A stretch of DNA of 34,527 bases from Mollicutes bacterium (GTDB taxonomy: Bacteria; Bacillota_I; Bacilli_A; RF39; UBA660). Positions 954 to 29,707 of the stretch are shown here, piece by piece; positions within the stretch are counted from its first letter, which is position 1; every line of letters starts with the position of its first letter. The notes below the pieces were generated by a model, which was given only the letters and a program-made list of their open reading frames with translations, was not told the origin of the DNA and ran no database searches. The DNA lies in the NCBI GenBank assembly GCA_012799635.1, contig JAAZKW010000013.1, positions 1-34,527 on the forward strand, read 5' to 3'. A program made the translations under genes and the position numbers.

Positions 954-2654
954 ATGGCTGGTAGAGGTAAGAAAAAACTTAGTAAAAATTCTACTGTTGC
1001 AAATTGGCTAGTAGGTATTTATACTAGAAGATCTTTTGATGATAATGAAGAAAAAGAATCTAATACAATAACTAATCAAAAAGAGATGATAAATAATTTT
1101 GTTTCAAAAGAAAACAATATGACAATAGTTGATTATTATGTAGATGATGGATATACAGGTACAGATTTTGATAGACCAGGATTTCAAGAAATGATGAAAG
1201 ATATATCAGATGGAAGAATTAATACAATTATTGTTAAAGATTTATCCAGATTAGGTAGAAATAGTTTAGAAGTTGGTAAATATATTGAAGATATCTTTCC
1301 TATATATAATATAAGAATAATAGCTATCAATGATAATGTAGATTCATTTAAAAGACCTGAATCTATTAATGATTTAATGGTTCCAATTAAGAATTTAATA
1401 AATGAAAGTTATGCTAGAGATATTTCTAAAAAGGTTTCTTCTGCTTATTATACAATGGCTAGTTCTGGTAAATTTGTAGCTGGAACATCTCCTTATGGAT
1501 ATACATTTGATGAAAACGATAAACATCATCTTGTAGTAGATCCAAATGAAGTAGAAACAGTTAGATTAATATTTAAAATGGCTTTAAAAGGCGATGGTAG
1601 AGTTAAAATAACTAAATATTTAAATGATCACAATATTTTATGTAGAAAGGAAATACAAAGAAGAAGAAAATATAAATTATCTTTAGATCCTTTAGAAGAA
1701 ACAATAAAATATAAATGGTCAACTTCTACAATAGGAAGAATGCTAACTAATGAAATATATATAGGTAATTTAACTCAATTAAAAACAAAAAGGGAAAGTT
1801 TCAAAAATCATAAAGTAATAAATGTTGATAAAGAAGATTGGGTAAGATTTGAAAAAGCACATGAACCAATTATAACCAAAGATGATTTTGATAAGATACA
1901 AGGGTTAATTAAAGTAAATGCAAAGAGATTATCAAATACTGTAGAAAGAACTTATTCAATATATAATGGAGTTTTAAAATGTGCTGATTGTGGTAGAGCA
2001 ATGTATAAACAAGAAGATAGTAGAGGAAATCGCCAGCTATCAAATTATTTTTGTAATACTTATTTATATATAAGTAAAACTTCTTGTAGCTCTCACAAAA
2101 TAAAAACAGAAGATTTAAATGATATAGTTTTAGAATCAATTCAAATGCAAGTTAAGTTAGTAATTGAATTAGATAGAAGTTTAAAACGACTATATTTTAA
2201 GAATAATAAAGAAACAGTTGAAAGTGAGTATAAAAATAATACCAGAATAGCTGAACTTAAAATAAACAATTTAAAGAACAAAAAAATTCAATTATATGAA
2301 GAATGGAAATTTAATAATATAGATAAAGATGAATTTATGAATCAATCTAAACTTATTGAAGAAGATATTAAATTAGTAGAAGAAAAACTTGAATTAATAA
2401 CTAAGACATACAGAGATAATATAAAAATGATTAAAAGAAATGATTATTGGATAAATCATTATAGAAGAAATAAAAAAATAAAGAAATTATCAAGAGAAGT
2501 TATTAAAGAACTTATCGATGTTATTTATATAACTGCTGATGGTAATGTAGATATTCATTTTAAATACAATAATGAATATAAAGAATTGGTAACATATTTA
2601 GAAAATGAAGGAGCTGTTAAGGAATGTCAAAATGGAGAGTTGGTATTTACTTAA
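954..2654 (+). CDS. Large serine recombinase (site-specific integrase/excisionase)
   Basis: N-terminal resolvase domain GIYTRRSFDD...TNQKEMI...DDGYTGTDFDRPGFQEMM...KDLSRLGRN; recombinase domain; zinc ribbon CADCGRAM...C; C-terminal coiled coil. RBS ggaaggagaa. Confidence 0.95.
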   Translation: MAGRGKKKLSKNSTVANWLVGIYTRRSFDDNEEKESNTITNQKEMINNFVSKENNMTIVDYYVDDGYTGTDFDRPGFQEMMKDISDGRINTIIVKDLSRLGRNSLEVGKYIEDIFPIYNIRIIAINDNVDSFKRPESINDLMVPIKNLINESYARDISKKVSSAYYTMASSGKFVAGTSPYGYTFDENDKHHLVVDPNEVETVRLIFKMALKGDGRVKITKYLNDHNILCRKEIQRRRKYKLSLDPLEETIKYKWSTSTIGRMLTNEIYIGNLTQLKTKRESFKNHKVINVDKEDWVRFEKAHEPIITKDDFDKIQGLIKVNAKRLSNTVERTYSIYNGVLKCADCGRAMYKQEDSRGNRQLSNYFCNTYLYISKTSCSSHKIKTEDLNDIVLESIQMQVKLVIELDRSLKRLYFKNNKETVESEYKNNTRIAELKINNLKNKKIQLYEEWKFNNIDKDEFMNQSKLIEEDIKLVEEKLELITKTYRDNIKMIKRNDYWINHYRRNKKIKKLSREVIKELIDVIYITADGNVDIHFKYNNEYKELVTYLENEGAVKECQNGELVFT

Positions 2655-4192
2655 GATTATCGTCAGATGACGATGATGATAAATTAGAATCAAATAGTAT
2701 TACAAATCAAAGAAGTTTAATTAATTATCATTTATCTGATATGAAAGATATTAGTGTATATAAGTGTTATGCAGATGATGGATATACTGGTACAGATTTT
2801 GATAGACCAGCATTTCAAGAAATGATGGATGATATAAGAAATAAAAAAATCAATTGCGTTATCGTAAAAGATTTATCTAGACTTGGAAGAAATTATATCA
2901 ATGTAGGTCATTTTATAGATGATACACTTCCTAGATATAAAATTAGATTTATAGCTGTTAATGATAATGTAGATTCTTATTTAAGACCAGAGTCAATGAA
3001 TTCATTAGAAGTGTATTTTAAAAATCTAATGAATGAGAGTTTTGCTAAAGATATTTCTAAAAAAGTTAGAACATCTTTTGAGATTAGTAAAAAGAATGGT
3101 AACTTTATAGGAGTAGTTGCTCCATTTGGATATTTAAAAGATCCTGATGATTGTCATAAATTTATCGTAGATAAAGAAGCTGAAAAGATAATAAAAAACA
3201 TATTTAAAATGGCTTTAAATGGAATAAGTAGGCAAGATATAGTAAAAGAACTTAATAAGAATCATATACCAACACCAGCTAAGTATATGAAGAGTTTTTG
3301 TAAAAGTAAAAATCCTAATATAGGAATTGAATGGACAGTTGTTATGCTTGATAAAGTTTTAAGAAATAAAAATTATATCGGATGTTTAGTTCAAGGTAAA
3401 AAAACTAGAATTAGTCACAAAAATCATAATACAGTTAGAGTTCCAGAAGATGAATGGATTATAGTTCCTGATCATCACAAAGCAATTATTAGTGAAGAAA
3501 TATTTAATCAAGTTCAAAATATTGTTTATAACAGAAACTCTAGAGTAAGTTCAAATGGTAAACTATATAAATATACTGGATATTTAAAATGTGCTGATTG
3601 TAATTCTTCCATGAAAAAATTTAATCGACCAAATAGTAATAGTACATTTTTTTATTGCAGTACATATATAAAAAACAAAGAATGTTCTAAACATTATATT
3701 ACTGAGAATGATTTAGATAGTACCTTATTAGAAATTATTAATAAGTATATAGAAGTTATAACAAATTTATCTGATAAAATAAACGATGATATATCTATGT
3801 CATATATAGAATATGAAAAAGAGAATAAAGAATTTAAAATAATTGAATTAGATAAAGAGGAACAAAAATATAGAAAGTTAATTGAAGAAGTTAAAGAAGA
3901 TTATAAAAATGATTATATATCTAAAGGAGACTTCGAATTATTTAAAGATAAATACATGTATCAATTAAATAAAATATTACTTGAAAAAGAAGAACTGAAT
4001 AATAGTAAATCAAATCAAGATAATATAGATCGAATCAATCGAATCAAAAGAATAGGAAAAATAGATTATATAGATAGAAATATAATTATTGAATTAATTG
4101 ATAAGATTTTAATTCATGAAAATGGAGATATAGAAGTTATTTTTAAATATAAAAATTTATATGAAGATGCTCTTAGGTATCTCAATTCGTAG
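2624..4192 (+). CDS. Second large serine recombinase
   Basis: GIYLRLSSDDDDD...SNSITNQRSLI...DDGYTGTDFDRPAFQEMMDD...KDLSRLGRN; zinc ribbon CADCNSSM...C; overlaps the previous ORF by 31 bp in another frame. Confidence 0.95.
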   Translation: MSKWRVGIYLRLSSDDDDDKLESNSITNQRSLINYHLSDMKDISVYKCYADDGYTGTDFDRPAFQEMMDDIRNKKINCVIVKDLSRLGRNYINVGHFIDDTLPRYKIRFIAVNDNVDSYLRPESMNSLEVYFKNLMNESFAKDISKKVRTSFEISKKNGNFIGVVAPFGYLKDPDDCHKFIVDKEAEKIIKNIFKMALNGISRQDIVKELNKNHIPTPAKYMKSFCKSKNPNIGIEWTVVMLDKVLRNKNYIGCLVQGKKTRISHKNHNTVRVPEDEWIIVPDHHKAIISEEIFNQVQNIVYNRNSRVSSNGKLYKYTGYLKCADCNSSMKKFNRPNSNSTFFYCSTYIKNKECSKHYITENDLDSTLLEIINKYIEVITNLSDKINDDISMSYIEYEKENKEFKIIELDKEEQKYRKLIEEVKEDYKNDYISKGDFELFKDKYMYQLNKILLEKEELNNSKSNQDNIDRINRIKRIGKIDYIDRNIIIELIDKILIHENGDIEVIFKYKNLYEDALRYLNS

Positions 4193-10534: not shown

Positions 10535-11725
10535 ATGAGAAATGTTGGTACTATATCAAGGGGAATAAGAACACCTATTATAAAAGATGGTGATGATTTG
10601 GTTAAAGTAGTCGTAGATAGTCTTTTAAAAGCATCTAAGACGGAGGGATTTTCATTTCGTGATAAAGATGTTGTTGCAATAACCGAAGCTGTTGTTGGAA
10701 TAGCAACTAGTAATTATGCAACAGTAGATCAAATAGCAAAAGCTATTAAAGATAAGTTTAATTCAGATAATATTGGAGTAATTTTTCCTATATTAAGTAG
10801 GAATCGTTTTGCAGTATTATTATCAGCAATAGCTCGTGCCACTAAAAAAATAACTTTACAAATAAGTTATCCAGCTGATGAAGTAGGAAATGATATTATG
10901 GATAAAGAAAAATTAAAAAAACTAGGAATTAATCCTTATAATCATGTAATAACTGAAGCAGAATATCAAGAGAAGTTTGGAGATTTTAAACATCTTTTTA
11001 CTGGTATTAATATGGTTAACTTTTATAAAGATGTTATTGTTAAAGAAGGGTGTGAAGCCGAAATAATTCTTGCAAATGATCCTAGAGCGATTTTAAGTTA
11101 TACTAATGATGTCTTAGTATGTGATATTCATTCAAGATATGAAACTAAAGAAATTCTTAGAAATAATTCTAAAGGTAAAGTTATTGGTCTTGATGAAATA
11201 TTAACTTCTTCGGTTGATGGAAGTGGATATAATACTAAATATGGATTATTAGGATCTAATAGGGCAACCGAAGAAAGAGTTAAATTATTTCCTGAAGCTG
11301 GAGATAGTTTTGTATATGAAATTCAAGATGAATTAAAAAAAGCAACAGGAAAAACAATTGAAGTTATGATTTATGGCGATGGTGCTTTCAAAGATCCTGT
11401 AGGTCAGATATGGGAACTTGCAGATCCTGTTGTATCACCGGCATATACCAAAGGTCTTGAAGGCTCGCCAAACGAATTGAAACTTAAATATTTGTCAGAT
11501 AATAAATTTAATCATTTAAGTGGCGAAGAATTAAATGAAGCAATGAGAAATGCTATTAAAGAAAAAGATAAGAATTTAAAAGGAACAATAGAAACTCAAG
11601 GTACAACTCCAAGAAGATATGTTGATTTATTAGGTTCTCTTGCTGATTTAACTTCAGGCTCTGGTGATAAAGGAACGCCTGTAGTTCTGATTCAAGGTTA
11701 CTTTGATAATTATGCTAGTCAATAA
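10535..11725 (+). CDS. Coenzyme F420-0:L-glutamate ligase (CofE/FbiB)-like protein
   Basis: MRNVGTISRGIRTPIIKDGDDL...FRDKDVVAITEAVVGIATSNYATVDQIA... and MIYGDGAFKDP patterns; RBS tggagga. Confidence 0.75.
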   Translation: MRNVGTISRGIRTPIIKDGDDLVKVVVDSLLKASKTEGFSFRDKDVVAITEAVVGIATSNYATVDQIAKAIKDKFNSDNIGVIFPILSRNRFAVLLSAIARATKKITLQISYPADEVGNDIMDKEKLKKLGINPYNHVITEAEYQEKFGDFKHLFTGINMVNFYKDVIVKEGCEAEIILANDPRAILSYTNDVLVCDIHSRYETKEILRNNSKGKVIGLDEILTSSVDGSGYNTKYGLLGSNRATEERVKLFPEAGDSFVYEIQDELKKATGKTIEVMIYGDGAFKDPVGQIWELADPVVSPAYTKGLEGSPNELKLKYLSDNKFNHLSGEELNEAMRNAIKEKDKNLKGTIETQGTTPRRYVDLLGSLADLTSGSGDKGTPVVLIQGYFDNYASQ

Positions 11726-14404: not shown

Positions 14405-14422
14405 TTGAAGGAACAGGTGCTT

Positions 14423-15262
14423 ATGAAAACAATGGAAAAAAGTTTAGGTTTTTATGCCTTTTGTAAAGAAGATGAATTTAGGATAAATGTAATAAAGGCA
14501 ATGCTTGCAAATAAAAAGGCTAGTATTTTACCTGTTCAAAAAAAATTTGCGAGATTGGTAAATGAAACAAATAAGTATTTACATCCAATACTAAAGAAAA
14601 ATAATAAAGATGATTTTATAGCAAGGTGTGATTTTTCAACTGATGTTGATAAAAGCGTATATAAATATTTTTTATTACTTTTAGCATATTTTAATATTAA
14701 AAGGAAAGATATTGGCTACTATATATTATTTGAACTTAAAGCAATGCTATATTTTGAAATTATAAAATGGTACTATAATAATAATAATAAAGTCAATTTT
14801 ATAACAAGATTGTGTTTATTTGATGATATTAATAATTCCACTTTTGCTAGCGTTTATGTTAGAAATGTTTTATCAGGAAGAGAAGATTTAAATGTTGTTT
14901 TTAATGATTTTCAATTTAATTTAATTTTTAAAGAGCCTTTTTCATTAATGTATGAATGTTTTATTCGAGACGAGATATTGGATAAACTTAAAATTGCTGC
15001 TGCCATTTTTTTAGATTCTCGATTAAAATACTTTGTTTATGATAGTATAGCATTTGAGTTTGCTGCATATAATATTATTATTGATAGATATGATTTTAAA
15101 TTTACTATAAGAGATGTATTTGATGAAATGCATGAAATCGGTTTAATAACATTTCCTAATGAAACAAATGATAAAAAAAATTTTAAAGAGTTTTTTTTAA
15201 AAATAATTAGTTATTCAGAACAAGTTCAACAAGAGTTTACAGAGTATCAAAATAGTCTTTAA
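14423..15262 (+). CDS. Hypothetical protein (~279 aa; ORF track starts at TTG 14405)
   Basis: Long ORF; ATG at 14423 preceded by RBS-like aggtg; 11 bp from ispE. Confidence 0.7.
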   Translation: MKTMEKSLGFYAFCKEDEFRINVIKAMLANKKASILPVQKKFARLVNETNKYLHPILKKNNKDDFIARCDFSTDVDKSVYKYFLLLLAYFNIKRKDIGYYILFELKAMLYFEIIKWYYNNNNKVNFITRLCLFDDINNSTFASVYVRNVLSGREDLNVVFNDFQFNLIFKEPFSLMYECFIRDEILDKLKIAAAIFLDSRLKYFVYDSIAFEFAAYNIIIDRYDFKFTIRDVFDEMHEIGLITFPNETNDKKNFKEFFLKIISYSEQVQQEFTEYQNSL

Positions 15263-15273
15263 AGGCAAATAAA

Positions 15274-16107
15274 ATGAATGAAATTATAGTATTATGCCCC
15301 GCCAAAATCAATTTGTTTTTAAATATTATTGGTAAAGATAATCACATGCACTATTTAAGAGCAATTAATCAAAGTGTGAATTTATATGATATTCTTAAAA
15401 TAAAGGTTAATAATACGGGTAAGATAAATATTATATGTAATAACCCCTTAATTCCATTAGATTATAATAATACAATATATCAGGCGGTTTTAATTATGAA
15501 GAAAAATTATAATATAAAATATGGCTTTGATATAAAACTTACTAAAAATATTCCTATATCTTCTGGTTTAGGTGGTGAGTCAACCGATGCAGCAGGTACT
15601 ATTTTAGGTATAAAGGATATCTTTAAACTTGATATCTCAATAGATAAACTTATTAAGTTAGGAATGCTTATTGGAGCTGATGTTCCTTTTTGTATAATCG
15701 GGGGAACATGTATGGTTGAAGGCTTTGGTGAAAAAATTCAAAAAATAAATTTACCTTTACAGCCAATGATAATTATTAAGCCTAATTTTAAAGTTAGTAC
15801 TAAAGAAGCTTTTGAAGAATATGATAAAAGATGTGCAAAATATATGGAACTTAATGAGTATGTGATTGGTTATAATGATTTTGAAAAAACATCTTCTAAA
15901 GAAATACAAGTAATTAAGAACACACTTTTAGAAAATGGAGCAGTATTATCATTTATGAGTGGATCAGGGCCAAGTGTTGTGGGTATTTTCAATGATAGTA
16001 ATAAACAAAAAAAAGCATATTTAACTTTAAAGAAACATTTTTTAGCATATAAGGTTTATAACGTATTTTCTTCAGAAGGTGTTAGAATATTAAGGAAAGG
16101 CAAATGA
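15274..16107 (+). CDS. ispE: 4-diphosphocytidyl-2-C-methyl-D-erythritol kinase
   Basis: GHMP kinase motifs: CPAKINLFLNIIGKD, NIPISSGLGGESTDAAGTI, MSGSGPSVVGIF. Confidence 0.92.
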   Translation: MNEIIVLCPAKINLFLNIIGKDNHMHYLRAINQSVNLYDILKIKVNNTGKINIICNNPLIPLDYNNTIYQAVLIMKKNYNIKYGFDIKLTKNIPISSGLGGESTDAAGTILGIKDIFKLDISIDKLIKLGMLIGADVPFCIIGGTCMVEGFGEKIQKINLPLQPMIIIKPNFKVSTKEAFEEYDKRCAKYMELNEYVIGYNDFEKTSSKEIQVIKNTLLENGAVLSFMSGSGPSVVGIFNDSNKQKKAYLTLKKHFLAYKVYNVFSSEGVRILRKGK

Positions 16108-16131
16108 TTTTAAAAAGGAAATAGATAGGAA

Positions 16132-17085
16132 ATGGAGAAAATTAATAATTATAACAAGAAAGTAATAATAAAGAATGAAAATAATGAGATTTTGTTTAGT
16201 ACTAATGATGTACAGTCAATATATTTATATCCCTTAAGTCTGAAAGACTATATTTTAAATATAAATAGTAAAAAACCAATTTTATTAAATATTATTAAAT
16301 ATGATAAAAAAATTAATTATGATATTTTTTTACGAAACGAATATTTTAATAATTTAAAATGTGTTGAATTATTAGTAGATGATAATTATGATATAATAAC
16401 TAATATAATAAATTACTTGTATGACAATAATATATTAATAACTTTAAATATTAAAAATATCAATAAAATCCCTGACTTGTTTTTAATAAAAAACATTAAT
16501 AAAGTAATATATATTAAAATTTTTTGGAATTATTATAATATAAAACTTTTTGAACAAAAACTTGCAATAATAGAAGAATACAAAACACCAAAGTTAAGTA
16601 TTTTAATTAAAAGTTATTTAAATATTAACAAAATAAATTCATATGAAAAATATATAAATCTTTTTAGAAAATGGGGGGTTGACATTTATCAATTATCAAA
16701 AAAGTTATTGCCGTATAATGTAAATAATGTTAAGGTAGATAAACAAATTATTGAAAAAATTAGGTTTTTAGAAAAAAAATATGACCATTTTTTTATTAGT
16801 GTTAAAAATTTAGAAGATTATTATTATCCTAAGTTTCGTTTAGATAATCGTAATAGTAAAGTATGTTTTGCTTGTTATTTAAAACCTTATTTATATAAAA
16901 AAGATATAATTGCTTGTAAGGTTGAAGAGATATTATTAAATAAAAGTAAATGGCAAGTTAGTAATTTTGATAAATGTGGAAAAAATTGTAGTGATTGTGC
17001 ATCGATATATGAAAATGATATGTTATCTTTAATAAAATCAAAGATAAAAAATGTTAAGATATCTGTGGAAATAATAAAGGAGTGA
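16132..17085 (+). CDS. Radical-SAM-like protein lacking the CxxxCxxC motif, retaining C-terminal auxiliary Cys
   Basis: C-terminus CFACYLKPYLYKKDIIAC...KCGKNCSDCASIYENDMLSLIKSKI parallels the 19799 radical SAM protein (CYSSLVSPILYGPNLVIC...KNCSSCCSIFDNQVLEMIKAQL); N-terminal IYLYPLSLKDYI parallels HYYPLSILDYA; no CxxxCxxC present. Confidence 0.6.
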   Translation: MEKINNYNKKVIIKNENNEILFSTNDVQSIYLYPLSLKDYILNINSKKPILLNIIKYDKKINYDIFLRNEYFNNLKCVELLVDDNYDIITNIINYLYDNNILITLNIKNINKIPDLFLIKNINKVIYIKIFWNYYNIKLFEQKLAIIEEYKTPKLSILIKSYLNINKINSYEKYINLFRKWGVDIYQLSKKLLPYNVNNVKVDKQIIEKIRFLEKKYDHFFISVKNLEDYYYPKFRLDNRNSKVCFACYLKPYLYKKDIIACKVEEILLNKSKWQVSNFDKCGKNCSDCASIYENDMLSLIKSKIKNVKISVEIIKE

Positions 17086-17091
17086 AAACAA

Positions 17092-17877
17092 ATGATATTA
17101 TTATTAGGTAAAAATGGTTCAGGTAAAACACATATTGCAAATGGACTAGATAAATTAGGTTTGAAAAAATCAATTAGTTATACTACTAGAGATATGCGTT
17201 TAAAAGAAAGGAATGGTATTGATTATTTTTTTATTTCAAAAGAAAAATTTATGAAATTAATCCAAGAAAATTTTTTTATAGAGTATAAACGTTTTAATGA
17301 TAATTTTTATGGTACTCCCAAAGAAAACCTATATAACAGTGATGTTATTATCGGAGATAGTTCCATTAATAATAATATTTTTTGTGCAGCAGATCGAGTA
17401 TTATTTGTAGAAACCCCAATCCAAAATCGATATGATGGAATGCTTAAAAGAGGAGATAGCAGAGAAGTAATATTTAATCGTATTCATGGAGAAAATGCAG
17501 AATATTTATTTTGTAAACCCATTGAAGTTGTTTTTAATAATCATAAAGATGATGTAATAAAAAAAGTATATCATATGATTAATAATCCTAGTGAAAAAGA
17601 AATCATAAGTTTTAGGGAATTTATTATTAATAGGCTCCATTGTTATAATCCTTTTTTACATTCTGATGAGTTGTTGCAATTTTTAGATTATGAAGAGCAT
17701 CTTATTAGAAAGCTTTTTGTTCAAAATAAGCTTTCATATGAAACATATGAAGAATATATATTAAGATTTTTAAAAGATAATCATTTTTGTTTTGAAAAAA
17801 ACGATGACAATTTAACATTAAATTTTAATAGCGGTCCAATAAGGACAAGAATGTTGAGATATTATAATGAAAGATAA
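17092..17877 (+). CDS. Guanylate-kinase-like P-loop protein with C-terminal extension
   Basis: GKNGSGKTH, SISYTTRDMRLKERNGIDYFFISKEKF, FIEYKRFNDNFYGTPKENL, RGDSREVIFNRI match the guanylate kinase fold; ~90 extra C-terminal residues. Confidence 0.8.
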   Translation: MILLLGKNGSGKTHIANGLDKLGLKKSISYTTRDMRLKERNGIDYFFISKEKFMKLIQENFFIEYKRFNDNFYGTPKENLYNSDVIIGDSSINNNIFCAADRVLFVETPIQNRYDGMLKRGDSREVIFNRIHGENAEYLFCKPIEVVFNNHKDDVIKKVYHMINNPSEKEIISFREFIINRLHCYNPFLHSDELLQFLDYEEHLIRKLFVQNKLSYETYEEYILRFLKDNHFCFEKNDDNLTLNFNSGPIRTRMLRYYNER

Positions 17878-18712
17878 TATTAATTTAAATAAATATTATT
17901 ATCATAGTATTAAAGATAGCTTTATCATTGATCAAATAATGAAGAAAGGAATATTATCTAGAAAAAATCAAAGCAAAATAGGAAAAGAAAATTTCACTCA
18001 TAGAAAAGATTTTATTAAAGCTAAATATTCTAATTATATTAGCATTTCTAAATATAAGACATTATCTTTTTTTATGTTCAATCTTCCCTTTGTAACTTTA
18101 ATAATAAAAAACAATTATCAATTGATTACGAAAGATGATTTGATCGAAGGCGAGTATTTAATTTTAGATAAAATAATGGTTGAGGACATAATAGGAGTTG
18201 GAATTAATGAGGAGTATTTAAAATCGAACAAGTCTTATAAACATTTAAATGATTATAAGAAAACAATAAATAATCTTCTTAAATATAATCTTCCTTTTTA
18301 TAATTTATTAAGTGGCGAAAAAATAACAATTAATAAGAATTTAAAAAATAATAATAAAGGAATTAAATTATTGCTTCTTTCGACTAAGTATTCAGGTAAA
18401 AAAGATGTTGTTTATATGTTAGAGAAAAAATATAATTTTAAGATCGATAATTATAATGAAAATGATAATGTTATATATTTTAAAGAAGTAAAAGATGAAG
18501 AATATGATTTGATTATTCATTTAGAGACGCTTGTTAATAAATATCGAAGATATTATATTAAAGTTCCAAATGAAATTAATAATTATTATAAAGAGGAACA
18601 AAAAATATATAAAAAATGGAATAATTACTCTAATTATTATATAATAAAAACACAAAGCAGTATTAAAGAAAAATTAAAAGAAGTTGAGAAAATAATTAAT
18701 TTTTATTTATAA
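17867..18712 (+). CDS. Uncharacterised protein; possible ART-like N-domain plus degenerate P-loop C-domain
   Basis: YYHSIKDSFIIDQIMKKGILSRKN...YISISK...EGEYLILDKIMVEDIIGVGI resembles the H-[S/Y]-E layout of ADP-ribosyltransferase folds; later LLLLSTKYSGKKDVVYMLEKKY resembles a Walker A. Overlaps the previous gene by 11 bp. Confidence 0.45.
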   Translation: MKDNINLNKYYYHSIKDSFIIDQIMKKGILSRKNQSKIGKENFTHRKDFIKAKYSNYISISKYKTLSFFMFNLPFVTLIIKNNYQLITKDDLIEGEYLILDKIMVEDIIGVGINEEYLKSNKSYKHLNDYKKTINNLLKYNLPFYNLLSGEKITINKNLKNNNKGIKLLLLSTKYSGKKDVVYMLEKKYNFKIDNYNENDNVIYFKEVKDEEYDLIIHLETLVNKYRRYYIKVPNEINNYYKEEQKIYKKWNNYSNYYIIKTQSSIKEKLKEVEKIINFYL

Positions 18713-18722
18713 GGAGTTAAAG

Positions 18723-19271
18723 ATGAGGAAGAGTATTCAATCAAAAAGAACTAAATTTACAGTAAGTACATATATGAAAGAAGCCCTTGACTATGAAATA
18801 GTTTTATTTAAAGAAAAAAAGATGTTTATTACAATTAAAAAGTATAATAAGACAAGTGGTTCATTTACTATTATAAATAGGCAAGGACAAAAGATTGATT
18901 ATATTAATGATGGTTATTATGTAGTTGAAATTACACCATTAAATGAAAATTATAATATAAGATTTTATGTTGATAATAATAAAAGATTAATAGATTATTA
19001 TATTGATATAACTTTAGAGAATAAAATAATTAATAATATACCTTGTTATGTAGATTTATATTTGGATATAGTACATTATCCTGATGATGATAGTTTTGCT
19101 TTTTGTGATGAAGATGAATTAAAAGATGCTTTGGATAAAAAATTAATTAGCAAAAAAGATTATTTATTTGCATATGAAATTGGTAATAAATTATTGAAGG
19201 AATTATTAAATCATAAGAATAAATATATAAATATTGATGTAATAAAATATATTAATCAATATTTTAAATAA
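18723..19271 (+). CDS. DUF402 family protein
   Basis: RFYVDNNKRLIDYYIDIT...YVDLYLDIV...DEDELKDALDKKLISKKDYLFAYEIGNKLLKEL matches DUF402. Confidence 0.8.
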   Translation: MRKSIQSKRTKFTVSTYMKEALDYEIVLFKEKKMFITIKKYNKTSGSFTIINRQGQKIDYINDGYYVVEITPLNENYNIRFYVDNNKRLIDYYIDITLENKIINNIPCYVDLYLDIVHYPDDDSFAFCDEDELKDALDKKLISKKDYLFAYEIGNKLLKELLNHKNKYINIDVIKYINQYFK

Positions 19272-19282
19272 AGAGGATATAG

Positions 19283-19783
19283 ATGAAGAAAAAATTATTA
19301 AGTAAAACATATTTAAGAGATGTTACAAAATATGAAATAAAATTTGATTTATCAAATGATGATTATTATTTAGCTGTTAAAAAGTTAATTGAAACTAAAC
19401 CATTTATTCTAACAAATGGTTTAAAGGTAATGGATAAGGGTTATTATATTTTAGAATTGCTTCCAAAGAATGAAAATTATTCACTTAGAGTATATTTTAA
19501 TGAAAACAAAGAAATTCTAGAATATTATATTGATATTAGTTTAAATAATGGAATGGATGAGGAATGTAGGATTCCATATTATGATGATTTATATATTGAT
19601 ATAACGATTGTTAAAGACAAAGTAGAGGTTCTTGATGAAGATGAGCTTGAAGAAGCTTTACAATCTGGATTAATAAGTAAAGAAAAATATGAGCTTGCCC
19701 ATAAAGTAAAAAATCAACTATTAAAAGAAATAAAAGATAAAAGTAATAAATATATTAATATGGATTTAAAATCTTTATTATAG
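19283..19783 (+). CDS. DUF402 family protein (paralog of previous)
   Basis: RVYFNENKEILEYYIDIS...YDDLYIDITIVKDKVEVLDEDELEEALQSGLISKEKYELAHKVKNQLLKEI. Confidence 0.85.
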   Translation: MKKKLLSKTYLRDVTKYEIKFDLSNDDYYLAVKKLIETKPFILTNGLKVMDKGYYILELLPKNENYSLRVYFNENKEILEYYIDISLNNGMDEECRIPYYDDLYIDITIVKDKVEVLDEDELEEALQSGLISKEKYELAHKVKNQLLKEIKDKSNKYINMDLKSLL

Positions 19784-19798
19784 AAAGGGAAAATTATT

Positions 19799-21145
19799 AT
19801 GCAACTTGTATTAGGAGACGAAAATGAAGTTTATGAACTTGCTAGTTTAAAAATAAAAGAAACTGAAAATAAATATATTAAAAAAGGCATTAATGATTTA
19901 TCAGAGAAAGAAAAGAAAATTAAAGCGAAAAGTTTAGTATTAGTATATAAGAAGACAAATAGAGTTATATTAGAGTTAAATATGATTCAAAATCAACATT
20001 ATTATCCTCTTAGTATATTAGATTATGCAAGAATTATGAAAAAATATATGAAAAAGGAGATTCCATCATTACCAATTATGTCATTAGATTCTCATGATTA
20101 TAATTTTTGTGATTTTAATTGTAAGGATTGTTTAGCTATTGATACAAGGCAATGGGCTCAAAAAAATTTGGGATATACTACATATGATATTGAAACTTAT
20201 GAAAAGACTTTAAAGGAAATATCAAGGTATTCCCAAAAAAGAGGCCTTGATAGTGTAAGGTTTGAGATGTCTGGTGAAGGAAATCCCGATATGTATCCTC
20301 ATAGGGCAAGAATAATAGAATATGCAGCAACAAAATGTAATATGAAGTGTGTTTATGTGTCCTCTGGAAGTATGTTAGATGAAAAGACGATTGATGCGTT
20401 ATGTAAATATGCTTACTATATAAGAATTAGTTTACCAGGCATTAATAATGAATCTTATTCTCTTTATTCTAATCAAGTATCTGATAATAAATTTACATAT
20501 GATGATGCTATGAATTTAATTGAAAAATTAGTTAAAAAAAGAAAGGAATATAATAGAGAAGACAAACTAATGATTGGTGCAAGAGCATGTATGAGACCGG
20601 AAAATGAAGGATATTATATAAAAACTGCTAAGAAACTTGGAGAAATTGGCGCTGATAGTTTTCAAATAGTTAAAATATTAATTCCTTTAGGTGATAAAAT
20701 AGAAAAATATCGAATACCTCAAGAAACGGTTGATGAATTAACCCACTTACATAAAAATTATGAAGATTATGGCTTAATGCATATCCAAACTCCTCATAAG
20801 CTTGATTATATGTATTATCATCGTGAACTTGAGGATCTTACTAAACCTAGTCAATGTTATAGCTCACTTGTATCACCAATTTTGTATGGTCCTAATTTAG
20901 TGATTTGCACTCATTGGGAAAAAATTAAAGATATTAATAATTCCCACTACGGTAAAATGAGGGGAAATATAAATGAGCTTGAAGATATAATGCATAATGA
21001 ACATGCCAATTATATTCGTAATATCGTTCCCAAGAATTGTTCTTCTTGTTGTTCAATATTTGACAATCAAGTATTAGAAATGATTAAAGCTCAACTTGTT
21101 CTTGTTGATGACCTAGATGATGTTGAGTTTTATTTAACTTATTAG
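19799..21145 (+). CDS. Radical SAM protein with C-terminal auxiliary-cluster-like Cys
   Basis: CDFNCKDC (CxxxCxxC), RFEMSGEGNPDMYP, C-terminal CYSS...CTHWE...CSSCCSIFDN. Confidence 0.88.
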   Translation: MQLVLGDENEVYELASLKIKETENKYIKKGINDLSEKEKKIKAKSLVLVYKKTNRVILELNMIQNQHYYPLSILDYARIMKKYMKKEIPSLPIMSLDSHDYNFCDFNCKDCLAIDTRQWAQKNLGYTTYDIETYEKTLKEISRYSQKRGLDSVRFEMSGEGNPDMYPHRARIIEYAATKCNMKCVYVSSGSMLDEKTIDALCKYAYYIRISLPGINNESYSLYSNQVSDNKFTYDDAMNLIEKLVKKRKEYNREDKLMIGARACMRPENEGYYIKTAKKLGEIGADSFQIVKILIPLGDKIEKYRIPQETVDELTHLHKNYEDYGLMHIQTPHKLDYMYYHRELEDLTKPSQCYSSLVSPILYGPNLVICTHWEKIKDINNSHYGKMRGNINELEDIMHNEHANYIRNIVPKNCSSCCSIFDNQVLEMIKAQLVLVDDLDDVEFYLTY

Positions 21146-21153
21146 GAAAAGTT

Positions 21154-21948
21154 ATGTATTCATTTAATATTGTTTTAACAGAAAAATGTAATATAAGTTG
21201 TCCTCATTGTTATATGTCTTGTAGTCATCTTTCAAACGGAAGAACAATGAGCAAAGAAAATATTACAACTATTATTAAGAGGCTTCCATTAAATACACGT
21301 AAAGTGGTGTTGACTGGAGGTGAAGTTTTTTGTGAAAAAGAATTACTTTTTTATGCTATAAAAACAATTAGAAAGCATTATCCAGATGTTATTATTGAAT
21401 TAGAATCAAATGGAAAATATATATATAGTAAGGAAGATATAAAAGTAGTATTAACATATTTAAAGACCATTGGTGTTAATAGTATTGTATTTTCTGATGA
21501 TCCTTTTCATCAACAAGGAGGTGTTGATCTTTTAAAGGTAAGAAAGATTAAAGAATATGAGGATAATAATACTCCAAAAATAAAATATTTAATTTTAAAT
21601 AAAGCTCTTGAAATTGGAAGGGCTAGAAATTTAGATGATAATAAAGTTGAAAAAAGAAATTGTATGAATAATGAAAATACAACAAATAACCCATACTTTT
21701 TTGTTGATGTAGAAGGTTTTGTTTATTTGTGTGCATGGAAAATAATTCCTCATATAGGTAATATTATATATGAACAGTTAAGTGATATTCTTTTTAGACT
21801 AAAAGAAGAATTTAATAGTTTAATTTTACGTGGAGAAATACTCAAGGCTATTAACATAAACCACAATCCCAAAGAGAATCAGAAAATAGTTAATGATAAA
21901 GGAGAATGTATGCTTTGTTATACTACCTTTTCCAGAAAGAAAAAATAA
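21154..21948 (+). CDS. Radical SAM protein
   Basis: TEKCNISCPHCYMSC (CxxxCxxC), VVLTGGEVFCEKELL; later FFVDVEGFVYLCAW...GECMLCY. Confidence 0.92.
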   Translation: MYSFNIVLTEKCNISCPHCYMSCSHLSNGRTMSKENITTIIKRLPLNTRKVVLTGGEVFCEKELLFYAIKTIRKHYPDVIIELESNGKYIYSKEDIKVVLTYLKTIGVNSIVFSDDPFHQQGGVDLLKVRKIKEYEDNNTPKIKYLILNKALEIGRARNLDDNKVEKRNCMNNENTTNNPYFFVDVEGFVYLCAWKIIPHIGNIIYEQLSDILFRLKEEFNSLILRGEILKAININHNPKENQKIVNDKGECMLCYTTFSRKKK

Positions 21949-21953
21949 TGTTC

Positions 21954-21983
21954 TTGACATTAATAGGTCAGTTATGTTACGAT
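21954..21983 (+). promoter_or_regulatory. Putative sigma-A promoter for the 22016 ORF
   Basis: TTGACA - 18 bp - TACGAT in the gap after the radical SAM operon. Confidence 0.45.
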
Positions 21984-22015: not shown

Positions 22016-22549
22016 ATGCAAGATAAAGAAAATATGCCTTATAATTTAGCACTTGAAAGAAGAGTAAGAGATTTTGCAACTGTTGATATTAATGTAATAG
22101 CAGGACAACAAGATAATCCCCAAAGATATGATGCTATTGAAGCAATCGATTTTTTTACAAGGAACTATACTGAAGCAGAACTTTATGATTTAATATTAAA
22201 AGCTAATATTACTGACGACAACTATTTGGCAGGAAGACTATGGGTAATTAATAACAAGAGATATAGATATGATGTTTTAACAAAAAAAGAATCTCTTGAT
22301 ATCGAAACAATCTTAAAAGAGTGTTTAAATGAAAATGACATCAAAGGGCTTTTTTTAAATACATTTAATAAATATGCTCCGGAATTATTTAATGAGATGA
22401 GAAATGCAATTCAAAGCAAAAATATTGGAAAGGCAATGAGCATAAGTAGAAAGCTTTCATACTTAGCAGCAAGAAATATTTATTTTGATATGAATAAAGA
22501 ATTGAACTTTGGAAAAGGACGAGTTAGGAAGATAAAAGACGCAGCTTAA
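22016..22549 (+). CDS. Hypothetical protein (177 aa)
   Basis: ORF with RBS gggaggt, own promoter and terminator; family not recognised. Confidence 0.7.
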   Translation: MQDKENMPYNLALERRVRDFATVDINVIAGQQDNPQRYDAIEAIDFFTRNYTEAELYDLILKANITDDNYLAGRLWVINNKRYRYDVLTKKESLDIETILKECLNENDIKGLFLNTFNKYAPELFNEMRNAIQSKNIGKAMSISRKLSYLAARNIYFDMNKELNFGKGRVRKIKDAA

Positions 22550-24959: not shown

Positions 24960-25661
24960 ATGAAAAAGAAAACTAAGCTTTTAATTGTTATTATTTTCTT
25001 TTTGATATCCTTTTATATTTCATTTGATGTAATTGATAAAAAACCGATTATAATTAATGAACCTAAAATAATTCAAAAAGAAAAATATGAAGAACAAATC
25101 ACATCATTAAAAGATAAATATCAAAATGATGATGTTAAAGCTATGCTTTCAATAGAAAACACTTCCTTTTCTTCGGTCATAGTTCAAGGAACTGACAATA
25201 GTTATTATTTAAATCATTTACCAGATAAAACTAAAAATATTATTGGCTCAGTATTTATTGATTACCGTATTGATATTGAAAATACTAAAAAGATCCTTAT
25301 ATATGGTCATAGTTCTCCTTCGTTTACAATTCCAATTATGATAATAGAAAATTATGAGAATAAGGATTATGCCCTTAAAAATCCATATATATATTTAGAA
25401 ACAGAAAAAGAGAAAAAGAAATATCAAGTAATTGGATCAACTATTGAAACTAATGATTGGACTTATATGAAATTAGATTTTAAAGATGAAGAAGAATTGC
25501 AGGAACATTATGATTATTTATTAAGTAAAAGTTTTTATAAATTAGATAGTTTAAATGCCAAAGATGAAATATTAATAATTCAAACTTGTTCTACTAATAA
25601 GAAGTATAAAAATTATCAAAAGAAATATTTTTTAGTTATAGCTAAAAAGATTAAGGAATAA
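24960..25661 (+). CDS. Class B-like sortase (non-canonical)
   Basis: N-terminal TM; SSVIVQGTDNSYYLNHLPDKTKNIIGSVFIDYR...ILIYGHSS...IIQTCST; RBS aaaggggg. Confidence 0.85.
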   Translation: MKKKTKLLIVIIFFLISFYISFDVIDKKPIIINEPKIIQKEKYEEQITSLKDKYQNDDVKAMLSIENTSFSSVIVQGTDNSYYLNHLPDKTKNIIGSVFIDYRIDIENTKKILIYGHSSPSFTIPIMIIENYENKDYALKNPYIYLETEKEKKKYQVIGSTIETNDWTYMKLDFKDEEELQEHYDYLLSKSFYKLDSLNAKDEILIIQTCSTNKKYKNYQKKYFLVIAKKIKE

Positions 25662-25705
25662 TATAATAAAAACAACAAGAATATTTAATGAATTTAATCA
25701 AATTA

Positions 25706-25739
25706 TGAAGATAAAAACCGGGTTTTTATCTTTTTTTAA
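25706..25739 (+). terminator. Strong Rho-independent terminator
   Basis: AAGATAAAAACCCGGGTTTTTATCTTTTTTT hairpin. Confidence 0.85.
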
Positions 25740-25758
25740 TAAAAAAATACGTTTTTAC

Positions 25759-25933
25759 TTGACAAATATGCAGAAAAATGTAAAATAAGTAACTAACAAG
25801 TTGGGTATTTTTGCCTTAACTTCTCAGGGGATTTTGGATTATTATTAAAAATAAGCCTCAATTTTGAAGTTAATGGTGATATCTAACTTTTGATATATAA
25901 ATCATTAATTAAATAAAAAGGAGGCTTTTATTA
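25759..25933 (+). promoter_or_regulatory. Promoter plus structured 5' leader of the surface protein gene
   Basis: TTGACA box near 25759; then hairpin-capable segments AAGTT..AACTT (~25799-25823), AAGTTA (25867-25872)/TAACTT (25884-25889), and AAGCCTC (25853-25859)/GAGGCTT (25921-25927), the last covering the SD aggagg. Confidence 0.5.
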
Positions 25934-28900
25934 ATGAAAAAACATTTATTAAAGTTAACTAAAATACTTGTTGTATTTGCGTTAATGCTTAACGTTTTTG
26001 AGCCTTTAATGGTACTTGCTGCAAAGCCTACTACTGCAGAAAAGGGACAAATTTATAATCCTCAAACTGATACAGTAGGAGATAGCGCAACTATTACTGA
26101 AGGTTCATTTACTAACCCTGGTGATGTACAGGTACAAAAGATAGTATCTAAAACAACAACTGAAGGTGTTTATAATGTTGAGTTTAAAGTACGTGGTAAA
26201 AAAGTACAAGAAACTTCAGTTAGACCTGTTTATGCTGTTGTTGTAATGGATACATCTGGCTCAATGAGAAATACAGCAGGAAATCCAAAATGGACAAATG
26301 CGGTTAACGGGGCTAAGACTTTTGCATCTACATTACTTCAAGAAATTCCAACTGCTCAAATTGCTTTGGTAACGTTTGCAGGTGATAAGTATCCAAATCA
26401 GGCATGGGATGATGCTGAAGTGCGTAGAGGATTTGCAAGTAGCAATCTTAATAACGTAAACTTTGGTGATGCAGAAGGTGGAACAAATGTTGAAGCTGGT
26501 TTAAGAGAAGCAAGAATTCTTTTATCTAATACTTCAATACCATCAAATGCAGCAAAATTTGTTGTTCTTATTGGAGATGGTGAGCCAACATTCTATTATG
26601 ATGATAATGGTAAAACTCAAGGTCCAGGTAATGGCTATAGTGAGGAGTCTATTCAAGAAGCTTATGGCGAAGCAAATTTAATTAAAAATGCTGGAGTAGA
26701 TGTATACACTTTAGGTTATTCAGTAACTCCAGGTGGAACCGCTGAAACTGTACTTAAAAATATAGCATCAAAACCAGAAAATTATTTTGCAGCTAGTCCA
26801 GAACAAGTGTCTGCTGCATTTATAGCAATTGCAACACAAATTTCTACATTTGCTGCAGGAGTTAATCCAACAATTGTTGATAATGCTGGCTCGGCATTTA
26901 CTATCACAAGCGGAAGTGGAACATTATCGCTTGAGGGTGATATAACTGAAGAATGGAAATCAGTAGGTTCACTTCAAATAACTATTGATGGTAATTCACC
27001 AACTGGTTGGTATCCAACTAATGATGGTTTTACATTATCATATACTGATTATAATAATGTAAATCAAACTATTGATTATAATACTAATCCAGAAGTATAT
27101 TGGATTCAAAACAAATATAATTATGTAATTAATTATTATAAAGATAGCATTAGTTCTTCAAATTTTATAACTAAAGAAGAAGGCGAGGCATTTCTTGGTG
27201 AAGAAATTACTGCTGATACAACAGTACATATACCACCTGGATATAAATTTGTTGGCGAAGCTCCAAAGATGACTATTGTTGAAACAGGAAATGTTTTAAA
27301 TGTAGTTTATGTAAAAGATACCTTTGGATATAAAGTAGAATATTATTATGACAATGTAAAAAATGATAATTTAACAGTAACTGGTTCAGCTGAATATGGC
27401 AGCATAATTAATACATATACAGATAAATTAATAGCTGGTTATGAATTGGAAAAAACAGAAAATTTCCCACTTACAGTAAGTGAAAATGAAAATAACAATG
27501 TTATAAAAGTATATTATAAAAAGGGACAATATAATTACACAGTTAATTATTATTATGATAATGTTCAAGATACTACAGCAACAGAAAATAAAACTGCTTA
27601 TTATCTTGATGTTATTGAAACTTATGAAGAAAAGAATAAAACGGGTTATAAACTAAGTCATGTTAATGGGATTCCACTTACAATAGGTGCTAATCCTGCT
27701 GAAAATTATATTAATGTATATTATGTAAAAAACACTTTTGGATATACAGTAGAATATTATTATGATGGTGTTATAGATACTAGTAAGACCGAAAGTGGTA
27801 CGGCATTATTCGAAAGTCAAATTACAACATATACTGATAAAAATATTACGGGATATAAACTTGAAAAAGAAGAAAACTTACCACTTACAATAGGTGCTAA
27901 TCCAGATAACAATGTAATCAAGGTATATTATGTAAAGAATACCTATGCATATACAGTAGAATATTACTATGATGGCGTTATCAATAATTCTAAAACTGAA
28001 AGTGGTACGGCATTATTTGGAAGTCAAATTACAACATATATTGATAAGAATGTTGATGGATATAAGTTTGAAAAGACAGAAAATCTACCACTTACAATCA
28101 CAGCAGTAGCAGCAAATAATGTTATAAAAGTATACTATGTAAAAAATATGATTGGATATACTGTAGAATACTACTATGATGGTGTTATCAATAATTCTAA
28201 AACTGAAAGTGGTACAGCATTATTTGGAAGTCAAATCACAACATATACTGATAAGAATATTGCTGGATATAAGTTTGAAAAGACAGAAAATCTACCACTT
28301 ACAATAACTGGGGTAGCAGCAAATAATGTAATTAAAGTATATTATGTAAAAGATAGCTTTGCTTATACAGTAGAATACTACTATGATGGCATTATAAATA
28401 ATTCTAAAACTGAAAATGGTACAGCATTATTTGGAAGTCAAATCACAGGATATACTGATAAGAATATTACTGGATATAAACTTGAAAAAGAAGAAAACTT
28501 ACCTTTAACAATTACAGAAGTAGCAGCTAATAACGTAATCAAAATATATTATGTAAAGAATACTTATGGATATACAGTAGAATACTACTATGATGGTGTT
28601 ATAGATAATTCTAAAACTGAAAATGGTACAGCATTATATAATAGTAAAATTACAACATATACTGATAAAAATATTACAGGTTATAAACTTGAAAAAGAAG
28701 AAAATTTACCACTTACAATCACAGAAGTAACAGCTAACAATGTGATCAAGGTATATTATGTAAAAGATAGCTTTGCATATACAGTAGAATACTACTATGA
28801 TGGCGTTATCAATAGTTCTAAAACTGAAAATGGCACAGCATTATATAATAGTAAAATTACAACATATACTGATAAAAACATTGCAGGATATAAACTTGAT

Positions 28901-29707
28901 AAAGAAGAAAATTTACCTTTAACAATCACAGAGGTAGCAGCTAATAATGTAATTAGAGTATATTATGTAAAAGATACTTTTGCTTATAGAATTGAATATT
29001 ACTATGATAATGTAATAGATAGTTCTAAAACAGAGACATCTAGTGCATTATATCAAGATGTAATATCAACATATACTGATAAAAACATTACTGGATATAG
29101 ATTAGATAAGACAGAAAACTTACCACTTGTTGTTGGTAATGTTGAAAACAATAATGTAATTAAAGTGTATTATGTAAAAAATACATATCAATTTAAAGTA
29201 TTTTACTTCTATGATAATTTAATAGATAGTTCTAAGACAGAGACATCTAGTGCATCATATCAAGATGTAATTGATACATATACTGATAAAAATATTACAG
29301 GTTATAAACTTGATAAAGAAGAAGGTCTTCCACTTACAATCACAGAAGTAGCAGAAAATAATGTTATTAAAGTATATTATGTAAAAGATACTTTTGGATA
29401 TACAATAGAATATTACTTTGATGAAGTAATAGATGAAACCCTAACAGAAAATTTAACAGCAATATATGGAGAAGAAATAAGTACATATCCTGATAAATTA
29501 ATTGAAGGTTATATACTTAACAAAGTAATAGGATGTCCGCTTATAGTAAGCGAAGATCCTAAGAAAAATGTAATTCAAGTACATTATGTAACTTATGGAC
29601 AAGGTACAATTGAAGATCCAGAACCTCCACATACTGAAGTAGTTGTTTCAAATAACAGAAGTATAAATACTGTTTATCTTTATAAAAAAGAGGAAGAAGA
29701 AAAATAA
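25934..29707 (+). CDS. Secreted vWA-domain surface protein with tandem MucBP-like repeats
   Basis: Signal peptide MKKHLLKLTKILVVFALMLNVFEPLMVLAAK; MIDAS DTSGSM; vWA features ALVTFAG, VLIGDGEPT; 69-aa repeats YTVEYYYDGVI..SKTE..GTAL...TYTDKNITGYKLEKEENLPLTI...NNVIKVYYVK. Confidence 0.92.
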   Translation: MKKHLLKLTKILVVFALMLNVFEPLMVLAAKPTTAEKGQIYNPQTDTVGDSATITEGSFTNPGDVQVQKIVSKTTTEGVYNVEFKVRGKKVQETSVRPVYAVVVMDTSGSMRNTAGNPKWTNAVNGAKTFASTLLQEIPTAQIALVTFAGDKYPNQAWDDAEVRRGFASSNLNNVNFGDAEGGTNVEAGLREARILLSNTSIPSNAAKFVVLIGDGEPTFYYDDNGKTQGPGNGYSEESIQEAYGEANLIKNAGVDVYTLGYSVTPGGTAETVLKNIASKPENYFAASPEQVSAAFIAIATQISTFAAGVNPTIVDNAGSAFTITSGSGTLSLEGDITEEWKSVGSLQITIDGNSPTGWYPTNDGFTLSYTDYNNVNQTIDYNTNPEVYWIQNKYNYVINYYKDSISSSNFITKEEGEAFLGEEITADTTVHIPPGYKFVGEAPKMTIVETGNVLNVVYVKDTFGYKVEYYYDNVKNDNLTVTGSAEYGSIINTYTDKLIAGYELEKTENFPLTVSENENNNVIKVYYKKGQYNYTVNYYYDNVQDTTATENKTAYYLDVIETYEEKNKTGYKLSHVNGIPLTIGANPAENYINVYYVKNTFGYTVEYYYDGVIDTSKTESGTALFESQITTYTDKNITGYKLEKEENLPLTIGANPDNNVIKVYYVKNTYAYTVEYYYDGVINNSKTESGTALFGSQITTYIDKNVDGYKFEKTENLPLTITAVAANNVIKVYYVKNMIGYTVEYYYDGVINNSKTESGTALFGSQITTYTDKNIAGYKFEKTENLPLTITGVAANNVIKVYYVKDSFAYTVEYYYDGIINNSKTENGTALFGSQITGYTDKNITGYKLEKEENLPLTITEVAANNVIKIYYVKNTYGYTVEYYYDGVIDNSKTENGTALYNSKITTYTDKNITGYKLEKEENLPLTITEVTANNVIKVYYVKDSFAYTVEYYYDGVINSSKTENGTALYNSKITTYTDKNIAGYKLDKEENLPLTITEVAANNVIRVYYVKDTFAYRIEYYYDNVIDSSKTETSSALYQDVISTYTDKNITGYRLDKTENLPLVVGNVENNNVIKVYYVKNTYQFKVFYFYDNLIDSSKTETSSASYQDVIDTYTDKNITGYKLDKEEGLPLTITEVAENNVIKVYYVKDTFGYTIEYYFDEVIDETLTENLTAIYGEEISTYPDKLIEGYILNKVIGCPLIVSEDPKKNVIQVHYVTYGQGTIEDPEPPHTEVVVSNNRSINTVYLYKKEEEEK
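27104..29587 (+). repeat. Tandem repeat array: 12 units of 207 bp (69 aa)
   Basis: Equivalent codons (mostly the V of YYVK) at 27104, 27311, 27518, 27725, 27932, 28139, 28346, 28553, 28760, 28967, 29174, 29381, 29588: constant 207-bp spacing. First units most divergent. Confidence 0.9.

Follow-up and report, generated by a model that had tools for sequence, protein, structure and literature searches.

The window analyzed here is a single contig of 34,527 nucleotides (JAAZKW010000013.1) from the small, AT-rich genome of a Mollicutes bacterium (assembly of 1.15 Mb in 61 contigs, 89% complete), and at positions 16132-21948 it carries a conserved seven-gene cassette that is real, rare and new as a set. 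The cassette encodes a radical S-adenosylmethionine (SAM) enzyme called rSAM1, a pseudo-radical SAM paralogue of it (psR), a second radical SAM enzyme (rSAM2), a guanylate-kinase-like protein (GMKL), two DUF402 proteins and a protein specific to the window. The reading that we favor, with a probability of roughly 40%, is that of a horizontally moving biosynthetic unit which would make a small molecule via nucleotide or nucleotide-linked-sugar intermediates. Literature searches for the gene combination yielded no description of it and no curated family or paper describing it was found, in agreement with the initial annotation of this DNA, which had recognized no known pathway for the set.

Recurrence and boundary of the cassette

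Recurrence was searched with rSAM1 as bait, and the alignment-based scan covered 84,980 species. In the window's family, strong matches to GMKL (E below 1e-27) were present in 5 of 386 genomes, clearly separate from ordinary guanylate kinases, which score 1e-19 or weaker against the GMKL query; rSAM1 adjoins GMKL in all five, one of which shows only the start of rSAM1 where the contig ends. Two of 193 sampled genomes of the window's order contained rSAM1. The species-wide scan returned 12 rSAM1 loci in gut-type metagenome-assembled genomes of Bacilli and Clostridia, four of them being the same family genomes, and a divergent second copy (L077:1-4140) was found in one Clostridial genome, the same that carries locus L044; no other genome with rSAM1 was seen among 297 sampled from the order of this two-copy genome. 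Co-localization independent of ispE, which the initial annotation had named as the observation that would support a system, was thus found in a total of 13 genomes and 14 loci from two bacterial classes (Bacilli and Clostridia) with differing flanks. The recurrence of the 16132-21948 set beside different neighbors is more than chance. Unrelated housekeeping genes lying side by side would fit ispE and the open reading frame (ORF) at 14405, but as an explanation of 16132-21948 this is contradicted by genes that stay together in distant genomes and that most relatives lack, and it is hardly credible for the set as a whole.

The system had been proposed to span 14405-21948 as nine co-directional, tightly packed ORFs. 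Nine co-directional ORFs are indeed present on the plus strand, separated by 11, 24, 6, -11, 10, 11, 15 and 8 bp (that is, -11 to 24 bp) and followed by 67 bp to the next gene. However, only the seven-gene set recurs elsewhere, whereas ispE (15274-16107, plus strand; TIGR00154, 189.9 bits, above cut-off) and the 14405 ORF were absent from all the other rSAM1 loci that were read, so that the earlier boundary was off by two genes and 16132-21948 is the conserved unit. The membership of ispE was rejected because the other loci lack it and ispH is found in the same genome. ispE occurs in 4 of 117 sampled genomes of the family (2 of 10 of the genus), and ispH is present in the window's genome although ispE is patchy in its lineage; the methylerythritol phosphate (MEP) pathway is therefore likely present in this genome, within a lineage that mostly lacks it and where it is patchy. 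Given the rarity of ispE in the family and the presence of ispH, ispE is probably a neighboring MEP gene of the ordinary kind. The individual calls of ispE, a guanylate-kinase-like protein, two DUF402 proteins, two radical SAM enzymes and a radical-SAM-like protein without cluster cysteines were all upheld by profiles, paralogy or fold.

Transcription signals were less informative. The promoter placed earlier at 21954 corresponds to a TTGACA-18-TACGAT match that starts there, but promoter-like matches carry no information in this AT-rich region (89 found against 78.9 +/- 9.0 expected). The nearest plus-strand terminator-like site is at 22541, beyond the next gene, and a weak 5-bp one lies inside ispE at 15673. 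Because the 22541 site is past the next gene, a transcript may extend through 22016-22549.

rSAM1 and its paralogue psR

rSAM1 (19799-21145, plus strand; PF04055, 5.4e-10) carries the motif C104-x3-C108-x2-C111 together with an SGEG motif, and its CX3CX2C is invariant in 12 sequences. Four C-terminal cysteines (C353, C370, C414 and C417) do not vary across the 12 sequences or in the divergent copy and form a BtrN-type 'twitch' pattern with one predicted auxiliary-cluster site. The protein also has an N-terminal domain of its own (about residues 1-90), which in a low-confidence model is mixed, with the predicted order bbb-aa-bb-a. The AlphaFold2 (AF2) model of rSAM1 (predicted local distance difference test, pLDDT, 73.7; predicted template modeling score, pTM, 0.79) matched DesII first among PDB folds (1.6e-8), then TigE (1.8e-7) and SuiB (3.5e-7), as well as CteB and the nucleotide-binding viperin and BlsE. 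A PDB sequence search with rSAM1 gave nothing useful, and the protein scored above no NCBIfam cut-off.

psR (16132-17085, plus strand; 317 aa) has no sequence family of its own and is a paralogue of rSAM1, with a profile comparison of E 9.7e-21 and probability 99.3 over 326 columns. In an alignment with 10 homologues (11 sequences) C245, C262, C286 and C289 are invariant, and the CX3CX2C and GGE-like SAM motif are lost in psR and all its homologues. The AF2 model (pLDDT 84.8) finds radical SAM enzymes as best PDB folds, namely SuiB, PqqE, viperin and BlsE. The Clostridial psR proteins are fused to an aldo/keto reductase whose D, Y, K and H positions are visible. These features mark psR as a catalytically dead rSAM1 paralogue that keeps only the predicted twitch-type four-cysteine site. 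That a protein unable to bind the SAM cluster retains a predicted Fe-S site points to a partner role, either redox or structural. Twitch proteins accommodate a single auxiliary cluster, and for the radical SAM enzyme PapB electron transfer between molecules has been demonstrated (PMC10470005).

rSAM2 and peptide modification

The last gene of the cassette encodes rSAM2 (21154-21948, plus strand; Pfam radical SAM, 3e-9), a second twitch-type radical SAM enzyme in which C12-x3-C16-x2-C19 and C170, C193, C252 and C255 are invariant in 11 sequences, the latter four forming a predicted auxiliary-cluster site. Its nearest named family is the YydG/EpeE epimerase (1.5e-17, 64 of 300 bits) and it matches PDB 8ai3 at 1.9e-17. 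This relationship to a peptide epimerase raises the possibility of a system for ribosomally synthesized and post-translationally modified peptides (RiPPs) or for protein modification, in which rSAM1 and rSAM2 would modify a peptide or a cassette protein, psR would recognize the substrate and the nucleotide enzymes would be accessory. The models of rSAM1 and psR match SuiB, CteB, TigE and PqqE, rSAM1 has its own N-terminal domain, and most Bacilli relatives encode a small conserved protein of 150 aa, all of which would suit such a system. On the other hand, all RiPP models are far below their cut-offs, the window, locus L042 and the Clostridial loci all lack the 150-aa protein, and the conserved set has no exporter or peptidase; nor were a transporter or a precursor peptide found with the cassette. 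As the initial annotation had noted, the window genes, with gaps of at most 24 bp, leave no space between them for an ORF of precursor size, although no search was made for a distant precursor. Additionally, the order predicted for the N-terminal domain of rSAM1 would not be the usual one of a RiPP recognition element, as far as a low-confidence model can indicate. Peptide or protein modification is, on balance, unlikely.

GMKL, the DUF402 pair and exchangeable partners

GMKL (17092-17877, plus strand) matches Pfam Guanylate_kin at 1e-18 and stays below the TIGR03263 cut-off (79.5 of 160.45 bits), and its own profile matches guanylate kinases at 6e-21. The N-terminal half is guanylate-kinase-like, with an intact P-loop and most of the residues of the guanosine monophosphate site, and is followed by a conserved C-terminal part of about 100 aa; GKNGxGK, YTTR, R36, E39, DY and YG are invariant in relatives. 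A second match of guanylate kinase type is present elsewhere in the window's genome.

The two DUF402 proteins, a (18723-19271) and b (19283-19783), both on the plus strand, match PF04167 at 2.9e-12 (47.0 bits) and 2.8e-13 (50.2 bits) respectively, against a gathering score of 23.9, and would belong to a nucleotide-phosphatase family. DUF402 members, Ntdp and FomD among them, hydrolyse nucleotide phosphates, the known substrates being nucleoside di-/triphosphates or cytidylyl phosphonates (PMC11602121). Protein a keeps the acidic motifs DLYLD and DEDEL; protein b, which is kept in other rSAM1/rSAM2 loci, reaches only 3e-5 with the FomD model, far below the cut-off. In several relatives (L035:10247-10729, L041:3154-3636 and others) the second DUF402 copy is without DEDEL, and by its motifs it could possibly be a second pseudo-enzyme of the cassette.

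Between GMKL and the DUF402 pair the window encodes a protein of 281 aa (17867-18712, plus strand) without any family match, in the place taken in relatives by a YfcE-like metallophosphoesterase and the 150-aa protein. The ADP-ribosyltransferase (ART) domain suspected earlier in this protein, with a degenerate P-loop as the alternative, was not recovered in Pfam, NCBIfam, PHROGs or PADLOC. The protein has almost no detectable relatives and none usable for a structure: among 243 family genomes it gave one marginal match (2.3e-4) confined to its C-terminal part (residues 211-280), and no relation was found to GMKL or to the 161-aa P-loop protein of the cassette.

Two main architectures can be recognized. 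The Bacilli type has the order psR, GMKL, metallophosphoesterase, 150-aa protein, DUF402, DUF402, rSAM1 and rSAM2, followed by GT2 and DUF4422 glycosyltransferase genes and sometimes by a methyltransferase or a UDP-galactopyranose mutase; the window is a variant in which 17867-18712 replaces the phosphoesterase and the 150-aa protein and glycosyltransferases are absent. Locus L042 shows a rearranged order and includes genes of the Nudix, AAA_28, HAD, polysaccharide pyruvyl transferase and FrhB-like kinds. The Clostridial type (L044-L046) comprises rSAM1, rSAM2, the psR-reductase fusion, P-loop proteins and DUF402, together with a nucleoside diphosphate (NDP)-kinase-like protein keeping the NxIH motif (recognized by reading the sequence, not as a family hit), a transglutaminase-like protein (by eye) and a divergent phosphoribosyltransferase (PRTase)-like gene with a PHP-domain protein. 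In L047 and L077 rSAM1 stands with PRTase-like, HIT-like and NADAR (GP30.3) proteins, the HIT-like and NADAR-like neighbors being common to both. The same partner modules thus reappear in distant loci. By family, the swapped partners are DUF402, Metallophos_2, NUDIX, AAA_28, PRTase, PHP and NADAR (GP30.3), and by motif HIT-like and NDP-kinase-like proteins, so that nearly all of them appear to belong to or resemble nucleotide- or phosphate-handling families. The 150-aa protein (L034:2653-3108 and homologues) is strongly conserved in most Bacilli relatives and its gene overlaps a DUF402 gene; it had no family match, and a PDB sequence search with it gave nothing useful.

Partners of this kind could also serve a nucleotide-analogue antiviral or stress system resembling prokaryotic viperin and its kinase, in which rSAM1 would make a modified nucleotide and kinase-like proteins would raise it to the triphosphate. 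Viperin (NF038283) is the best NCBIfam model for 12 of the 12 rSAM1 proteins (best 4e-11), PADLOC reports pVip at 8.5e-11, and viperin is among the fold matches of rSAM1. A guanylate-kinase-like partner, NDP-kinase-like proteins elsewhere, the NADAR and PRTase proteins that accompany rSAM1 at L047 and L077 and a patchy distribution typical of defense genes point the same way. Nevertheless, the window copy scores 39.2 bits against a cut-off of 180 and the match is limited to the core barrel. Viperin is not known to have an auxiliary cluster, and the four invariant auxiliary cysteines of rSAM1 would not be expected of it. Moreover, hydrolases outnumber kinases, and no defense family was found within the cassette set, where PADLOC returned only weak matches, among them a resemblance to pVip of a generic radical SAM kind. 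A viperin-like function is accordingly quite improbable.

RNA or tRNA modification, with the nucleotide-like folds acting on RNA, can be weighed on the same partners. DUF402 proteins can be RNases (RNase W/FAU-1; PMC11602121), the only PDB sequence match of DUF402 protein b is FAU-1 (1.1e-3), and bases could be the targets of the PRTase and NADAR partners. Yet there was no match to an RNA-binding domain or to any family of RNA-modifying radical SAM enzymes, housekeeping RNA modification would not be confined to about 1% of the family, and neither the glycosyltransferases nor the aldo/keto reductase suit such a role, which leaves RNA as a very improbable substrate.

Proposed function

The auxiliary cluster of BtrN has four cysteine ligands and serves a two-electron oxidation (PMC9012708). 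The BtrN analogy, the partners from nucleotide families and the aldo/keto reductase fusion and glycosyltransferases make the oxidation or rearrangement of a nucleotide-linked substrate the best explanation of the cassette. The first rank of DesII, an enzyme acting on TDP-sugars, among the rSAM1 fold matches speaks for it as well. In the order of steps that we infer, rSAM1 would cleave SAM at its CX3CX2C cluster and abstract a hydrogen from the nucleotide-linked substrate, and its four-cysteine twitch cluster would accept an electron to give a two-electron oxidation as in BtrN. psR would act as the Fe-S partner of rSAM1, as an electron relay, a substrate holder or both, so that rSAM1 with psR would oxidize or rearrange a nucleotide or nucleotide-linked sugar, and rSAM2 would perform a second radical step. 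GMKL (elsewhere P-loop, AAA_28 or NDP-kinase-like proteins) would set the phosphorylation state, whereas the DUF402 proteins (elsewhere also metallophosphoesterase, Nudix or HIT proteins) would remove the nucleotide part. The product might be further reduced or glycosylated in loci with the aldo/keto reductase or glycosyltransferases, both of which fit an oxidized sugar-like intermediate.

Several observations weigh against this proposal. The closest relative of rSAM2 is a peptide epimerase, and the fold matches of rSAM1, all at a template modeling (TM) score of about 0.5, do not separate nucleotide-sugar from RiPP enzymes. Additionally, the window copy has neither a glycosyltransferase nor a reductase or an exporter, proteins with kinase- and phosphatase-like folds can act on substrates other than nucleotides, and no substrate-binding residues are readable. 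The initial annotation had suggested that the mix of nucleotide handling and radical chemistry modifies a nucleotide, an RNA or a protein; its nucleotide part survives, as the partners favor a small nucleotide-linked metabolite, but modification of RNA or protein gained no positive support. A new pathway class, in which a radical SAM enzyme would use an obligate dead paralogue as its second Fe-S site to remodel a nucleotide into a nucleotide-linked metabolite while kinases and hydrolases are exchanged between lineages to give strain-specific variants, is advanced tentatively and must be called doubtful.

If the proposal of a nucleotide-linked biosynthetic unit is true, the cassette would represent a radical SAM family for which no curated model exists and which is conserved beside a dead paralogue keeping only the auxiliary-cluster cysteines. 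It would provide a natural test of the role of auxiliary clusters in SPASM/twitch enzymes, which is largely unresolved according to the cited papers, and would point to a nucleotide-linked metabolite from hardly studied small-genome gut Bacilli and Clostridia.

Mobility and surroundings

The cassette genes are AT-richer than their neighbors in the window (mean GC 0.221 against 0.268), as in most Bacilli loci, but some Clostridial loci do not show this. Between genera the rSAM1 sequences share 66-70% identity, whereas Lon reaches only 60-63% within the genus, which would fit either transfer or strong constraint. The GC contrast and the rSAM1/Lon identities fit, and do not prove, horizontal spread. 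An empty insertion site was not found and could not be shown because the order of the genes flanking Lon varies within the genus, and no DNA repeat convincingly bounds the cassette. rSAM1 and its divergent paralogue had no matches in phage, plasmid and viral-contig collections. ParB-like genes lie directly upstream of the Nudix-psR end in two loci (L035:4844-6176 and L039:179-817), and recombinase or insertion sequence (IS)-like genes surround L038; such neighbors are hints of carriage by mobile elements.

Elsewhere in the window, two adjacent large serine recombinases (Resolvase, Recombinase, Zn-ribbon) followed by two ABC transporter genes at 954-4192, some 12 kb upstream of the cassette, probably form a mobile element. 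A sortase-like gene beside a protein of 1257 aa that contains a von Willebrand A domain (24960-29707) is probably a surface pilus or adhesin locus, and a F420-0:gamma-glutamyl ligase-family protein (10535-11725) adjoins a tRNA-Glu.

Comparison with known systems

The DUF402 proteins share their Pfam family and the acidic motifs kept in the window copies with Ntdp and FomD, from which they differ by forming a tandem pair in a radical SAM cassette and by the loss of acidic motifs from the second copy in several relatives. YydG/EpeE is the best named sequence relative of rSAM2, but at 64 of 300 bits, and the window cluster is without a YydF-like precursor and the yyd transporter genes. pVip is the best NCBIfam and PADLOC profile for rSAM1 and likewise has a nucleotide kinase-like partner, but rSAM1 reaches 39 of 180 bits, has auxiliary-cluster cysteines and is accompanied by many hydrolases. 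DesII, the radical SAM deaminase of the thymidine diphosphate (TDP)-desosamine pathway, is the best PDB fold match of rSAM1 (416 alignment columns), and the glycosyltransferases found in many loci are a further likeness, although identity is about 15%. DesII contains only one cluster and its N-terminal domain is all-helical (PMC11434129), whereas rSAM1 has four auxiliary cysteines and, in its model, a mixed N-terminal domain, for which reason rSAM1 was rejected as a DesII. Finally, rSAM1 resembles BtrN and MoaA in its CX3CX2C and one C-terminal auxiliary-cluster site, with four cysteine ligands in BtrN (PMC9012708), but differs from them in that it has its own N-terminal domain, passes no curated cut-off and is accompanied by a dead paralogue that keeps only the auxiliary site.

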